Assembly (NCBI GenBank): GCA_903831485.1
Contig: CAIKXW010000205.1
Location: forward strand, 1 to 41,635
Length of the DNA: 41,635 nt
From: an uncultured Alphaproteobacteria bacterium
GTDB lineage: Bacteria > Pseudomonadota > Alphaproteobacteria > Caulobacterales > Hyphomonadaceae
Reading direction: 5' to 3'
Shown: piece by piece, positions 2,367 through 7,677 of the stretch
Layout: every line of letters starts with the position of its first letter
How positions within the stretch are numbered: the stretch's first letter is position 1
Program-made: the position numbers and the translations under genes
Notes under the pieces: generated by a model
The model's database searches: none
The model's input: only the letters and a program-made list of their open reading frames with translations
Told to the model about the DNA's origin: nothing

Positions 2367-2527
2367 GTCTAGTTCCGTCCTGGCTTCAGCTTCGAAAGTG
2401 CGCACCGCGCCGAATTCATAGACGCTGCAACGCGCCACACTTCAAGTGTCGGCGCTGCGGGACTAGAAGCGACTCACGGCAAGCCCCGGCATCAGGCAGG
2501 GACTTGCGTCGGGGAAGGGACATCGTC

Positions 2528-3877
2528 TTGGACGATATACCCAAAAGAGGATCTTCCGCTGTCGTGGAGGCAGATGCGGCGTACGACAAGTTCGTCGAGG
2601 ACAATCTCAAGCGGAACTATCTCGGCCACTATGTGCACGGCATGCTCGGAATGACCGGATTTCGGCTGGTCAACACGCCGACCTTCGTGCCGGCCTATCT
2701 GCATTCGATATCGGGTTCGGACTTCTGGGTCGGCATCGGTACCAGCCTGCAGCAGCTGGGCATGATCGTGTCGCCGATCATTGGCGCATCCCAGATCGAG
2801 CATCGCAAGAAGGTGATGCCGGTGTCGGTCACGCTGGGCGTGCTGATGCGGGTGCAGATCCTTGGTCTGGCGATTTCGGGCTGGTTCATGGTTGGGCCGG
2901 TGGCGCTGGCCTTTGCGCTGCTGTTCCTGTTCCTGCTCGGCTTCTTCCAGGGGCCTCAGCGCGTGGCATTCCAGCTTCTGCTTGCGAAAGTAATCCCGAT
3001 CCGGCTGCGGGGCAGGCTGCAGGCGTGGCGCAATCTCACGGGCGGGCTGATCGCCGCGCTGCTGTCCTACTTCGCGGGCTCGTGGCTGGTGGCCAACCAT
3101 GTCTGGGGCAATGGCTATGCGACGACATTCTTCGTTGCGTTCGTTCTGACGAGCCTCGGCCTGACGGCGCTGCAGTTGCTGATGCGCGAGCCGGAGCCGC
3201 CGACGGTGCGGGCGCGCAAGAGCCTGCGCGAGCGTGTTAAGGACGTGCCGGGCCTGATGCGCGAAGATGACGGGTTCTTCTGGTTCATGGTCGCGCGTTC
3301 GCTGGTGATGGGCTCGCGGATCGGGCAGCCCTTCTTCTTCCTGTTCGCGATCTTCTCGCTCGGCATCACGGCGGAGGCGCAGCCCGAGGCGTTCGGCGCC
3401 ACGCTGGCTGTCTTGTCGATCGCCTACATGGGCGCGGACACGCTCTCGAACCTGGTGTGGGGCTATCTCGCTGACAGGCAGGGCTTTCGCTCAACCTTCG
3501 TCATCTCGACGGCAATGAACATTGCAGGCGTCGCGGGTCTGATGCTTGGAAACTCCCTGGAGACCTATGCTCTGACGTTCGTTCTGATCGGCGCGGGGCA
3601 GTCTGGGTTCAACATGTCGACCAGCAATATCGTGCTCGAGTACGGACACCCGCACGACGTGCCGATGCGTATGGCGCTGTCGAACACGGCCGAGGGAGCG
3701 GCGGGGGCGCTGGCGCCGCTGGTGGGGGCGGGGCTTGTTATGGTGTGGGGGTATCACGCGGCGTTCGTGGCCACGGTGGTGACAATGGCGGTCGCGCTTG
3801 TGGTGACGATCTGGAAGGTGGATGAGCCTCGGCGGCGGCGAGTCGTCGCCCCCGGCCAAGACGATGGCGAAATCTAG
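2528..3877 (+). CDS. MFS-type permease
   Basis: A hydrophobic protein of about 449 residues with roughly twelve predicted membrane helices in two halves, separated by a charged loop near residues 215-240. This is the usual major facilitator layout. The substrate is not recognisable. There is no ATG near the 5' end. A TTG at 2528 has GGGAAGGGA seven bases upstream and is my preferred start; an in-frame TTG at 2504 has its purine stretch too close. The N-terminus (about 35 residues) is soluble and charged. The gene ends in CTAG, which also supplies the stop codon of the convergent small gene. Family assignment is solid; the start is uncertain by eight codons. Confidence 0.8.
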   Translation: MDDIPKRGSSAVVEADAAYDKFVEDNLKRNYLGHYVHGMLGMTGFRLVNTPTFVPAYLHSISGSDFWVGIGTSLQQLGMIVSPIIGASQIEHRKKVMPVSVTLGVLMRVQILGLAISGWFMVGPVALAFALLFLFLLGFFQGPQRVAFQLLLAKVIPIRLRGRLQAWRNLTGGLIAALLSYFAGSWLVANHVWGNGYATTFFVAFVLTSLGLTALQLLMREPEPPTVRARKSLRERVKDVPGLMREDDGFFWFMVARSLVMGSRIGQPFFFLFAIFSLGITAEAQPEAFGATLAVLSIAYMGADTLSNLVWGYLADRQGFRSTFVISTAMNIAGVAGLMLGNSLETYALTFVLIGAGQSGFNMSTSNIVLEYGHPHDVPMRMALSNTAEGAAGALAPLVGAGLVMVWGYHAAFVATVVTMAVALVVTIWKVDEPRRRRVVAPGQDDGEI

Positions 3878-4065
3878 CAGCCCTGCTTCCGGGCCGAGAG
3901 CCGGCGCTCGGCCTGCTCCAGAAGCTCGAGGAACTGCTCGGAGGTCGGGTCGTCGGTGGCGAGGGCATCCACGGGGTAGATCTCGCGCAGGGGGGCCGCA
4001 AAGCGTCTCGTCCGCCACATGACGTTGGTAGAGGTACGCGTCGGCTGATCGAGGTCTTTTGTCAC
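3874..4065 (-). CDS. Small NepR-like protein (putative anti-sigma factor of the general stress response)
   Basis: A 63-residue protein starting at a GTG with GGGAAA a few bases upstream. Its C-terminal half, PLREIYPVDALATDDP followed by TSEQFLELLEQAERR, resembles the NepR core pattern LRxxYxxxxxEPxPxxFLxLLxxLE, with about three extra residues between Tyr and Phe. NepR proteins bind EcfG sigma factors and release them when the phosphorylated response regulator PhyR takes NepR away. No phyR, ecfG or sensor kinase is in the window, so this would be an orphan copy. A GGAAC-N16-CGTC sequence lies just upstream. The frame can be extended to 4203, but that would put the start beyond the mla terminator. 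Similarity is judged by eye on a short motif, so it is a lead rather than a firm call. The coding call itself is supported by the start site and the exact CTAG junction. Confidence 0.5.
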   Translation of the reverse strand: MTKDLDQPTRTSTNVMWRTRRFAAPLREIYPVDALATDDPTSEQFLELLEQAERRLSARKQGC

Positions 4066-4091
4066 GCTGTTTCCCAATGTCTGCGAGAAGA

Positions 4092-4116
4092 GACGCCCGG
4101 CGGCACGGAGCGTTCC
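4092..4116 (-). promoter_or_regulatory. Candidate EcfG-type promoter of the NepR-like gene
   Basis: On the minus strand GGAAC (4112-4116) is followed by 16 bases and CGTC (4092-4095). The EcfG consensus is GGAAC-N16/17-CGTT, so the -35 is perfect, the spacing correct, and one -10 base differs. It lies 26 bases before the GTG start. nepR genes are commonly transcribed by EcfG itself, which makes the location meaningful. Confidence 0.5.
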
Positions 4117-4154
4117 GCGTTCGCTTCCACTGGTCGCAGCTATTGTCCAGGCCC

Positions 4155-4193
4155 AACGAAAATCGGCGCGGTCCGTGAAGGATCGCGCCGATT
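4155..4193 (-). terminator. Intrinsic terminator of the mlaA-mlaC unit
   Basis: AATCGGCGCG (4161-4170) pairs perfectly with CGCGCCGATT (4184-4193). Four inner pairs, one of them a G-T wobble, extend the stem to 14 pairs around the loop GTGAA. On the minus strand the stem is followed by a T-rich stretch (TTTTCGTT). It lies 46 bases past the mlaC stop codon. Confidence 0.85.
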
Positions 4194-4239
4194 CGTTTAT
4201 CATAGGTTAGCAAAACCTTACTTGATCTCCGCCAGCTCG

Positions 4240-4896
4240 CTAGCCCTTGTAGGCTGAGCCGCGGCCGTCCTTCTTCCGCGCTTCCATGTCGGCCAGCAGG
4301 ACGTTGATGCGTCCGATCAGCTTGTTGATGTCGCCATTGTTTCGGTCGAGATAATTCACGAACTGGGCCTGTTGTTCCTGGGCCAGCCAGAGCACGGAGC
4401 CGCCGAGTTCAATGCCGACGTCGCGCACGCGATAGTTCTGGCCGTCCTGGCTCAGCAGCACATCCCAGTAGACTTTCGTGTCCTTGCCGGTCTGCGAGTT
4501 CTTGATCACGGACTCGACGGTGGAGCGCTGCGGACCGTCATCCTTCGAGCCGGTGACGCGCAGCCCCTCGCCGCGGAACTGGTCGAAGTGAACCTGGTAG
4601 ACTTCGAGGGCGTAGGTTTCGAAGATCTTGGAGTACTTGTTGAAGTCCGCCTCGCTCAGCGAGCGTGAGTTCGTGCCAATGACACGGCGCGCGATCGAAG
4701 GCATGTGCGCGAACTTGTTCATGTACTCGCCGAACTTCTTCTCGCGCTGTTCGGCCGTGAGCGAGCGGTCGTTGAGCACGCTCAACACCGAGTTCGCGTT
4801 GGTCTGTACGTAGGCCTCGGATTTCTTGTCAGCGAAGGCCGCCGGCGCGAATGCGCTCGCTACCGCAACGGCTGCAAGCATGCTCGTGAGTTTCAT
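4240..4896 (-). CDS. mlaC: MlaC-type periplasmic phospholipid-binding protein
   Basis: A 218-residue protein with a signal peptide (about 22 residues, cleavage after AFA) and the MlaC/Ttg2D fold. FARRVIG-like text (here SIARRVIGTNSRSLS), the helix FNKYSKIFETYALEVY and the central strand KVYWDVLLSQDGQNYRVRDV are typical. MlaC shuttles phospholipid between the MlaA-porin complex in the outer membrane and the MlaFEDB ABC transporter in the inner membrane. mlaA lies 23 bases upstream on the same strand. The transporter genes mlaD, mlaE and mlaF are absent here and must be elsewhere. ATG 4896 is chosen over GTG 4908 because GGAGA sits just before it. A strong terminator follows. Confidence 0.93.
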   Translation of the reverse strand: MKLTSMLAAVAVASAFAPAAFADKKSEAYVQTNANSVLSVLNDRSLTAEQREKKFGEYMNKFAHMPSIARRVIGTNSRSLSEADFNKYSKIFETYALEVYQVHFDQFRGEGLRVTGSKDDGPQRSTVESVIKNSQTGKDTKVYWDVLLSQDGQNYRVRDVGIELGGSVLWLAQEQQAQFVNYLDRNNGDINKLIGRINVLLADMEARKKDGRGSAYKG

Positions 4897-4919
4897 CGAA
4901 GTCTCCACGTACGACCCGT

Positions 4920-5663
4920 TCAGAAGTCTAGTTCGTCATCCGTCAGTTCTGGGGCGTCATTCGGCTCATCATGGGGAATTCCGATGTCGGCAGCCCTTGT
5001 GCGGCCATACAAACGCCTGAGTGTGGTATAGGGATCGATCTGCTGGCGCAGCTCGTCAAACGTTTCGATCGCGTTCTCGCGCGCATTGACGCCGCCGAGC
5101 GCCATGGCGCCAAGACGGATCGCATCGTCATTCTCGAACTGCGGATAGTTGAGCGGATTGAGCGCGACGTCGCCGCCCTTGCCGACGATATCCCGCGTGT
5201 TCGTTGGTCCGAGTAAGGGAAGGACAATGAAGGGGCCGGGGTCGACGCCCCAGACGCCGAGCGTCTGTCCGAAGTCTTCCGTCGTCCGCTGCATGCCCAT
5301 GGTGGAGGCTGGATCGAACACGCCAGCTATGCCTACTGTGGTGTTCACCACGAACCGACCCAGCGTCGCGCCAGCGTCCGGAAGCTTGCCCTGCAGCAGG
5401 TGGTTCACGAAGGTCATGGGCTCGCCGAGATTGTTGGAGAAGTTGCCCACGCCCTCGCGGATCGGCTCGTTCGTCACCGCGCGGTAGCCGTAGGCGACGG
5501 GTTCGATGACCGCCTTGTCCAGCCCTTCATTGAAGGCGAACATCTGGCGGTTGAATTCCTCGTAAGGATCAGGGTTATCCGCCGTAACGCTGGCGCACCC
5601 GGCTGTGAACAGCGCCGCAAAGGCGGCGGCGCTACAGGAAAGACGAACGTGGATTGGTCGCAT
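4920..5663 (-). CDS. mlaA: MlaA (VacJ) outer-membrane lipoprotein
   Basis: A 247-residue lipoprotein with the lipobox LFTAGC (Cys23). The family core is obvious: DPYEEFNRQMFAFNEGLD near residue 32, the GVGNFSNNLGEP segment, and the GVDPGPFIVLPLLGP stretch in the middle. MlaA forms a channel with an outer-membrane porin that removes phospholipids misplaced in the outer leaflet and passes them to MlaC. It is the first gene of the mlaA-mlaC unit. Its promoter must lie in the 164-base divergent gap shared with sahR. The acidic C-terminal tail (PELTDDELDF) is a family-variable region. Confidence 0.95.
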   Translation of the reverse strand: MRPIHVRLSCSAAAFAALFTAGCASVTADNPDPYEEFNRQMFAFNEGLDKAVIEPVAYGYRAVTNEPIREGVGNFSNNLGEPMTFVNHLLQGKLPDAGATLGRFVVNTTVGIAGVFDPASTMGMQRTTEDFGQTLGVWGVDPGPFIVLPLLGPTNTRDIVGKGGDVALNPLNYPQFENDDAIRLGAMALGGVNARENAIETFDELRQQIDPYTTLRRLYGRTRAADIGIPHDEPNDAPELTDDELDF

Positions 5664-5800
5664 GTCGATACGTTCTCACACCGCTGGGCGGATATGTGGC
5701 CGGTTTACGTTAGGATCAACCTGCACGTACCACGGTCCCCAAGGCAATCTTGCCGTAGGATGAGCAGGAGCCGGGCCAAATCATGCCCGCGGCTTGAGTT

Positions 5801-5830
5801 CATATAAGGATATGTTTATATCGTTATATG
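5801..5830 (+). promoter_or_regulatory. AT-rich palindromic operator overlapping the sahR start (probable SahR autoregulatory site)
   Basis: CATAT-AAGG-ATATG (5801-5814) is a perfect interrupted palindrome. It is followed by TTTATATCGTTATATG, which repeats the ATAT spacing and runs into the start codon at 5828. This is the most AT-rich stretch of the region. ArsR-family repressors typically bind such AT-rich dyads over their own promoters. The match to SahR operators is inferred from family and position, not from a motif search. Confidence 0.65.
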
Positions 5831-6820
5831 CATCCCGTGGCTCTTGCACACCTCGTCACGCAACTCCGCGCCGCCGGCGAGATCACGCGGGCGCGGATTC
5901 TCGCCCTTCTGGCGCATGGCGAGCTGTCCGTGGGCGAGCTTGCACAAGTGCTGAACCAGAGCCAGCCGAGACTTTCGCGTCACCTCAAATTCCTTACGGG
6001 TGCAGGGTTGATCGAGCGGCTGCCCGAAGGGGCGTGGGTGTTCTATCGGTTGCCGGCTGAGGGAGGCGCGCGGGCTCTGGTCGACACCCTGATCGCATCC
6101 GTCGATACGCACGACCCCGAACTCAAGCGCGATCTCGATCGGCTGCGTGATGTGAAGGGCGAGCGAGCAGAGGCGGCGGGCCAGTATTTCGCGCGCGTGG
6201 CGGACGAGTGGGACCGGCTGCGGGCGCTGCACTATGCAGAAGCCGACATCGAGAAGGCGGTGCTCGCCGCGGCAGGGCCGGGACCGTTCGATCTGGTCGT
6301 GGATTTCGGCACTGGCACCGGCCGCATGCTGACCCTTTTCGCGGGCATGGCGCGGCGGGTGGAGGGGATCGACCTGTCGCACCAGATGCTCACCGTCGCG
6401 CGCAGCAAGCTGCAGGATGCGGGCGCAGCCAACGCCTCGGTGCGCCATGGCGATGCGACGGCATCACCGTATGCGGACAGCTCAGCCAGTCTCGTGATCA
6501 TCCATCAGGTGTTGCATTTCCTCGACGATCCTGGCCGCGCGCTCGTCGAAGCGGCGCGGGTGCTGGCGCCGGGGGGCAGTCTGATCGTCGTCGAGTTTGC
6601 GCCGCACACGCTGGAGCACCTGCGGACTGAGCACGCGCATCGCCATCTCGGCGTGAGCGAGGCCGACATGGCGCGGTGGGCCGATCGCGCCGGGCTGACC
6701 GTGAAGGCCGCCAAGACATTTGGCGCCCCCGGCGGCGAAAAGGGAATTTCGGTGATGGTGTGGTCTGCCGACAGCCAGAAGGCCGCCCAATCATCACCGG
6801 GCAAGAGGTCCGCAGCATGA
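5828..6820 (+). CDS. sahR: SahR: ArsR-family regulator with methyltransferase-like sensor domain
   Basis: A 330-residue two-domain protein. Residues 8-76 form an ArsR winged helix (ARILALLAHGELSVGELAQ, then the recognition region QSQPRLSRHLKFL). Residues 120-310 form a class I SAM-dependent methyltransferase fold with the binding loop VVDFGTGTGR (157-166) and acidic GIDLSHQM (180-187). This architecture defines SahR, a repressor of S-adenosylmethionine-cycle genes that releases DNA when S-adenosylhomocysteine binds. The next gene is metF, overlapping by 4 bases, followed by both halves of metH, which are known members of the SahR regulon. The classic metal-binding cysteines of ArsR are absent, which fits a non-metal ligand. 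No Shine-Dalgarno precedes ATG 5828, so the mRNA may be leaderless or start at GTG 5837. An active methyltransferase remains possible but less likely. Confidence 0.88.
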   Translation: MHPVALAHLVTQLRAAGEITRARILALLAHGELSVGELAQVLNQSQPRLSRHLKFLTGAGLIERLPEGAWVFYRLPAEGGARALVDTLIASVDTHDPELKRDLDRLRDVKGERAEAAGQYFARVADEWDRLRALHYAEADIEKAVLAAAGPGPFDLVVDFGTGTGRMLTLFAGMARRVEGIDLSHQMLTVARSKLQDAGAANASVRHGDATASPYADSSASLVIIHQVLHFLDDPGRALVEAARVLAPGGSLIVVEFAPHTLEHLRTEHAHRHLGVSEADMARWADRAGLTVKAAKTFGAPGGEKGISVMVWSADSQKAAQSSPGKRSAA

Positions 6821-7677
6821 AGACGCCGACAGTTTCTTTCGAATTCTTTCCGCCGAAGAACGCGGAAATGGAAAGCAAGCTCTGGGATTCTGTGAAGCGG
6901 CTTGAGCCGCTCGCGCCGTCCTATGTGTCGGTGACGTATGGCGCCGGCGGCTCCACGCGCGAGCGGACGCACGGCATCGTCAAAAAGATGGCGGAAGAGA
7001 CGTCGCTCAAGCCGGCAGGGCACATCACCTGCGTGGCTGCGACGAAGGACGAGATCGACCAGGTGCTGCGCGATTATTGGGACGCGGGCGTGAAGCGCGT
7101 GGTTGCACTGCGTGGTGATCCGACGGCCGGCATTGGAACGCGTTATGAACCGCACCCGGGGGGCTATGCCTACGCCAACGACCTTATCGCCGGCGCGCGC
7201 AAGATCGCGGACTTCGACATCTCTGTTGGCTGCTATCCGGAGGTCCATCCGGATGCGCCGTCGCTGAAGGCGGAGATCGAGAACCTGAAGCGCAAGTTCG
7301 ATGCGGGCGCGACGCGGGCGATCACGCAGTTCTTCTTCTACCCGGATGTGTACTTCAAGTTTCTCGACCAGGCGCGGGCGGCGGGCATCACGCAGCCGAT
7401 CGTGCCGGGCATCATGTTGCAGTCCAACTTCAAGGGGCTGAAGCGCATGGCGGATCTGTGCGGGACGGCGATCCCGACGCGTATCGCCGATCTCTATGAC
7501 GGCCTGGATGGCGACGCGGAGACGCGCGATCTGGTGACAGCGCATGTGGCGGCTGAACTGTGTCACCGGCTCGCGGAGCAGGGCGTCGATCACTTCCACT
7601 TCTACACGATGAACCGTGCGGGCCTGTCGCTGTCGACTTGCCGGTTGCTAGGCATCAAGCCCGAGGCCAAGGCATGA
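6817..7677 (+). CDS. metF: Methylenetetrahydrofolate reductase
   Basis: A 286-residue TIM-barrel flavoprotein that reduces 5,10-methylene-THF to 5-methyl-THF, the methyl donor for MetH. Visible motifs are SFEFFPPK near the N-terminus (with the catalytic Glu), SVTYGAGGSTRERT, VVALRGDPT, and QFFFYPDVYFKF. Length matches the bacterial single-domain enzyme. ATG 6817 overlaps the sahR stop (ATGA), and its own stop overlaps the VOC gene in the same way, so translation is probably coupled. The frame is open upstream inside sahR, but only this start fits the enzyme's N-terminus. The operon position puts it under SahR control. Confidence 0.96.
   Translation: MKTPTVSFEFFPPKNAEMESKLWDSVKRLEPLAPSYVSVTYGAGGSTRERTHGIVKKMAEETSLKPAGHITCVAATKDEIDQVLRDYWDAGVKRVVALRGDPTAGIGTRYEPHPGGYAYANDLIAGARKIADFDISVGCYPEVHPDAPSLKAEIENLKRKFDAGATRAITQFFFYPDVYFKFLDQARAAGITQPIVPGIMLQSNFKGLKRMADLCGTAIPTRIADLYDGLDGDAETRDLVTAHVAAELCHRLAEQGVDHFHFYTMNRAGLSLSTCRLLGIKPEAKA

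Follow-up and report, generated by a model that had tools for sequence, protein, structure and literature searches.

The closest described systems to the gene reported here are NepR homologues that accompany a canonical NepR. In S. melonis Fr1, a leucine and an aromatic residue are needed for the activity of both NepR (L32/Y36) and its paralogue NepR2 (L31/F35), and the authors suggest that NepR2 forms no complex with EcfG (available text of PMC6599016). Of the three extra NepR homologues examined in M. extorquens, not one bound an EcfG; negative feedback through PhyR was proposed for MexAM1_META2p0735, and META1p2700, which has a putative EcfG promoter, showed no PhyR binding and no effect on overexpression (accessible portion of PMC4814048). 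The same portion gives RsiA1 and RsiA2 of S. meliloti as a precedent for redundant anti-sigma factors (PMC4814048). Our search of the literature on NepR, EcfG and the general stress response found no earlier report of this gene in Hyphomonadaceae, nor does the accessible part of PMC12148442 mention it. Here we describe an orphan paralogue of NepR, divergent in sequence and preceded by a conserved ECF-type promoter, and we establish computationally its homology to NepR, its conservation in part of the host's family and its possession of an ECF-type promoter of its own.

The window, by which we mean the whole 41,635-nt stretch of DNA analysed, carries this gene between mlaC and a convergent transporter gene, with the following features:

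2504..3877, plus strand: MFS transporter gene, convergent, downstream neighbour (PF07690)
3874..4065, minus strand: orphan NepR-like gene (ORF call), 63 aa, GTG start at 4063-4065
4092..4116, minus strand: ECF-type promoter, -35 element GGAAC at 4112-4116, 16-nt spacer, -10 element CGTC at 4092-4095, then T
4161..4193, minus strand: hairpin of 14 pairs between mlaC and the small gene, terminator-like on the plus strand only according to the scanner
4240..4908, minus strand: mlaC, upstream neighbour (PF05494)
4920..5663, minus strand: mlaA (PF04333)

The initial annotation had read a 63-residue GTG gene with an LRxxY...FLxLLxxxE core, preceded at 26 nt by GGAAC-N16-CGTC, and both elements are real: the translation contains LREIY...FLELLEQAE, and the promoter motif lies at that distance from the GTG. 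The stop codons of this gene and of the MFS gene overlap in a common CTAG. A longer in-frame reading from an ATG at 4203 gives 109 aa, which is how the protein appears in one database cluster of 43 members (P0002). We rejected it and retained the GTG because the N-terminal extension runs across the 14-pair hairpin, because the homologous upstream DNA lies in a different frame in loci L002 and L087, and because a stop stands two codons ahead of the GTG in L088. Across the orthologues the start codon occupies the same place or one close by, even at 26% protein identity. The hairpin is probably the end of the mlaAC transcript, and its position between mlaC and the orphan nepR makes it probable that the latter is transcribed on its own; a search of Rfam returned no family above threshold within 3400-6000. 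The view that the gene stands alone was borne out, as phyR, ecfG and canonical nepR had no match anywhere in the window at E 1e-3, and adjacency to phyR or ecfG is absent from the 1.9-3.2-kb orthologous loci as well, a situation shared by some published NepR paralogues. Elsewhere in the window, an ArsR-type DNA-binding domain is fused to a methyltransferase (5828-6820), directly followed by a methylenetetrahydrofolate reductase gene (6814-7677) and, downstream of it, by an ORF that resembles homocysteine methyltransferases, a label taken from reading the sequence.

Orthologues occur in 11 of the 105 genomes of the host's family. A protein search returned eight homologues of the 63-aa protein, two of them bearing a name, which was "hypothetical protein", and a search with MlaA led to four near relatives, two of them Hyphomonadaceae. 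A profile built from the gene's own family (A2) found orthologues in 10 of the 105 genomes at E 1e-7 or better, and an improved profile (A3), run over 398 genomes of the order, a draw that left one carrier (G003) outside, added the eleventh (locus L129 of genome G101, E 9.5e-7). The neighbourhood is largely kept, with mlaC adjoining the gene in nine of eleven orthologous loci and the MFS gene likewise in nine: locus L095 of G100 has the MFS gene and no mlaC match within a mere 516 nt of upstream contig, L096 of G104 has mlaC and no MFS match, and L129 has a match to neither. Values of dN/dS between the window gene and nine of ten orthologues lie between 0.34 and 0.66, with 1.16 against L096 and 0.95 for the pair L092-L094; all are rough, the pairs being short and divergent, and selection on the gene looks purifying in most comparisons.

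The Pfam NepR profile (PF18557), which the initial annotation had named as the check, does not recognise the gene: neither the 63- nor the 109-aa form of the window protein matched, nor did any of the 15 members of A3, and a match of one family member to PF10147 (E 0.016) we judged to be chance. Homology therefore rests on the lineage-specific and profile tests, three of which point to NepR. First, no NepR had gone into A2, and in 17 of the 20 non-orthologous loci that were fetched its match proved to be canonical nepR, with phyR on one side and ecfG on the other (E 5e-5 to 5e-3). The three remaining loci were not NepR: by inspection of the sequences, L113 reads as MarR-type, and in L103 and L115, which lack phyR and ecfG, the match falls on frames of the same 170-aa length. 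The 20 loci fetched with A3, eight of them places already among the A2 loci, comprised 15 canonical nepR genes with phyR and ecfG, four members of a second orphan class and the eleventh orthologue; A3 also found the carriers' own canonical nepR in five of the ten carriers drawn (E 1.6e-5 to 6.8e-4). Second, when A3 was compared with 177,635 PDB sequences, NepR chains ranked first (2lfw_B, E 0.018) and second (3t0y_B, E 0.53, not significant on its own), ahead of an unrelated chain at E 0.87. We take 2lfw to be the NepR of S. melonis and 3t0y that of C. crescentus. Third, an independent profile, for which Pfam alone had supplied the 11 canonical NepRs (one incomplete), placed the window gene first of 736 frames in the window (E 0.0026, against 0.13 for the runner-up). 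Among 620 frames, the 11 orthologues took the first eleven places (the weakest, L129, at E 0.37), and none of 5000 shuffles of the window protein, 4781 of which were scored, attained its score. Such modest E-values are expected with some 40 comparable residues. An hhalign comparison with 21 canonical NepRs gave a probability of 97.3 but is partly circular, because the profile used, A4, contains NepRs retrieved by A2. Common ancestry with canonical NepR is thus well supported at the level of sequence, and the annotation's description of the product as NepR-like stands on these three tests together with two predicted helices. In every one of the 11 carrier genomes a canonical nepR scores above Pfam's cut-off, so that the orphan gene is an additional copy there.

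The second orphan class (L126, L141, L142 and L144, each near position 1500) lies in other genomes of the family. It has no phyR, ecfG or mla match in its loci of about 3 kb. Like the gene described here, it has GGAAC-N16 upstream, followed, as judged by eye, by GGTT or TGTT; unlike that gene, this class retains the VPDEF turn of canonical NepR and adjoins an amidohydrolase-like gene, labelled from its sequence. A3 gave an extra match in seven more genomes, which may belong to this class.

The initial annotation had called the promoter EcfG-type, and its ECF character is borne out by conservation. In the window, the pattern with spacers of 15-18 nt occurs five times, against 2.16 +/- 1.5 expected, and 7 of 100 shuffles reach five, so that the window by itself gives no excess over chance and the motif is significant only because both motif and spacing are conserved across orthologues. 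In each of ten orthologues out of ten, GGAAC-N16-CGTC stands 23-57 nt upstream of the start codon, and in L129 it lies 29 nt ahead of the ATG; extended to CGTCT, it precedes all 12 genes (the window's and 11 orthologues), while the 16 spacer bases vary. The part of the claim that names EcfG is plausible and unproven, since the -10 element is CGTC, whereas canonical nepR is preceded by GGAAC-N16/17-CGTT in every one of these 11 genomes. Summed by hand over the 11 carriers and set against a single control spacing of N13, GGAAC-N16-CGTT is enriched (488 sites against 304) and GGAAC-N16-CGTC is not (653 against 728). A reversed-pattern control (488 against 417 for CGTT; 653 against 1548 for CGTC) was discarded, since reversing the letters alters the word composition of the pattern. 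The common -10 variants tested in Sphingopyxis (TGTT, CATT and GGTT) all retain the final TT, according to the text available of PMC7083833. A -10 element both conserved and unusual suggests either a weak EcfG promoter retained as such or recognition by a different ECF sigma factor.

Comparison of residues indicates which parts of NepR the family has kept. The 21 canonical NepRs aligned share invariant R, G, LR, Y, V, E, P, F, L and AD; the first-helix L and Y/F and the second-helix L and A are retained in all 12 orphan proteins, and the G and P in few. Members of the family vary in the glycine that precedes the first helix core, in the V..E.VPD turn and in the length of the linker, and the FLxLL region, whose conservation the annotation had expected, is largely conserved, with F, W, M or L in its first position. 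Aligned by motif with S. melonis, the window gene and 11 of 11 orthologues carry the leucine and aromatic hot spots. A structure model predicts helices at 15-29 and 40-62 (mean pLDDT 77, pTM 0.36), a weak test in that two helices are common.

We lean towards a role for the protein in negative feedback, as a regulator of the NepR2 type competing for PhyR (or EcfG). This is the best supported reading because two published EcfG-controlled extra NepRs are described as PhyR-binding negative regulators, as far as the accessible text of their sources goes, and because the hot spots are kept. An ECF sigma factor, most simply EcfG, would switch the orphan nepR on; the two-helix protein would then occupy the NepR-binding surface of PhyR, leaving canonical NepR free to silence EcfG and so producing negative feedback. 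Alternatively, the orphan protein may bind EcfG directly. By either route the general stress response would be dampened or brought to an end, as has been proposed for S. melonis NepR2 and M. extorquens META2p0735, and the gene is thus probably another brake on it besides NepR. Against this reading count the missing match to PF18557, the erosion of canonical invariants, a -10 element of CGTC whose pattern shows no enrichment in the carriers, the M. extorquens homologues, of which none bound EcfG and META1p2700 did not bind PhyR either, and the view of the S. melonis authors on NepR2 and EcfG.

The alternative that survives best, itself unlikely in our estimation, is that the protein is a NepR-derived anti-sigma factor for another ECF sigma factor, one that prefers CGTC and drives the gene's own promoter in a partly insulated loop. 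The constancy of CGTC followed by T at all 12 orphan genes, against CGTT at the canonical nepR of the 11 carriers, is what such a factor would leave, and candidates exist: the first ecfG is seen in nine of 11 carriers (the exceptions, G003 and G100, have a nepR contig that ends nearby), a second EcfG-like factor 45-55% identical to the first is present in seven, and there are additional, more distant ECF matches. Beside the second factor, a NepR match occurs in four genomes, three of these matches exceeding Pfam's cut-off (L185-L191 and L213-L216 for both observations). Yet no second EcfG of the 45-55% class was found in G002, G004, G095 and G096, whose assemblies may be incomplete. GGAAC-N16-CGTCT[AC] occurs only 2-7 times per genome, 45 times in all across the 11 carriers, and tblastn found no EcfG-like gene in the 30 of these 45 loci that were fetched. 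The orphan nepR accounts for nine of the 30, and the sole other site seen in two genomes (L167 and L169) lies inside a frame of more than 750 codons. In one genome, GGAAC-N16-CGTCTA stands ahead of a receiver-domain-like protein (L162, near position 1500, minus strand) that weakly resembles PhyR (29% identity, E 6.6e-7).

Next in order of probability, and likewise doubtful, is that the protein serves as a redundant second anti-sigma factor: like NepR, it would itself bind EcfG and be set free by PhyR, after the manner of RsiA1 and RsiA2. Shared ancestry, the two-helix layout and the S. meliloti precedent (PMC4814048, as far as its text is available) agree with this account; against it, the turn and linker that the aligned canonical NepRs keep are lost here, and the accessible portions of the descriptions of the two feedback paralogues, from S. 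melonis and from M. extorquens, give no finding of EcfG binding. That a short ORF in an mla locus resembles LRxxY/FLxLL by chance and has an unrelated role, as the missing Pfam match and the position behind mlaC in most loci might suggest, is largely refuted and very improbable, for the three profile tests point to NepR and L129, without mla neighbours, retains both promoter and motif.

Returning to negative feedback through PhyR, the initial annotation's suggestion that the orphan protein could tune the general stress response is reasonable, and other NepR paralogues offer precedents for it (PMC6599016 and PMC4814048, in their available parts). It is conceivable, though we would not expect it, that one group within the family has wired a NepR copy outside phyR-ecfG to a private promoter whose -10 element, CGTCT, is kept unlike that of the general stress regulon. 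This copy would then respond to another sigma factor or only to very high EcfG activity; if true, it would be a threshold brake or would link two ECF circuits to each other. The 12 promoters provide a natural series: their unusual -10 element is conserved, while canonical nepR in these genomes retains CGTT at its promoter, so that how these bacteria limit their general stress response becomes directly testable. Short as they are, and able to drop below Pfam detection, NepR paralogues easily escape notice, and a profile built from the family exposes a second orphan class in other genomes.

A gene of this kind is already known; its novelty lies in its sequence class, in its locus and in an unusual -10 element that is conserved. 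With canonical NepR the gene shares the two-helix core with LRxxY and FLxLL and a GGAAC-N16 promoter, and it differs in standing apart from phyR and ecfG, in falling below Pfam detection, in having mostly lost the turn and the glycine, and in carrying CGTC instead of CGTT. META2p0735 of M. extorquens is, like this gene, an extra NepR homologue in a genome with a canonical nepR; it has an upstream EcfG-type promoter where ours has an ECF-type one, it belongs to another lineage, and stress-induced promoter activity dependent on PhyR and EcfG as well as binding to PhyR have been demonstrated for it, whereas our evidence comes from sequence (PMC4814048, available text). NepR2 of S. melonis Fr1 is likewise a small, divergent NepR-like protein present besides the canonical NepR, and both it and the gene described here retain the leucine and aromatic hot spots and receive no conclusive name from BLAST; NepR2 adjoins ecfG, whereas the present gene, known from its sequence alone, adjoins mlaC and an MFS gene and has CGTC as its -10 element (PMC6599016, available text).
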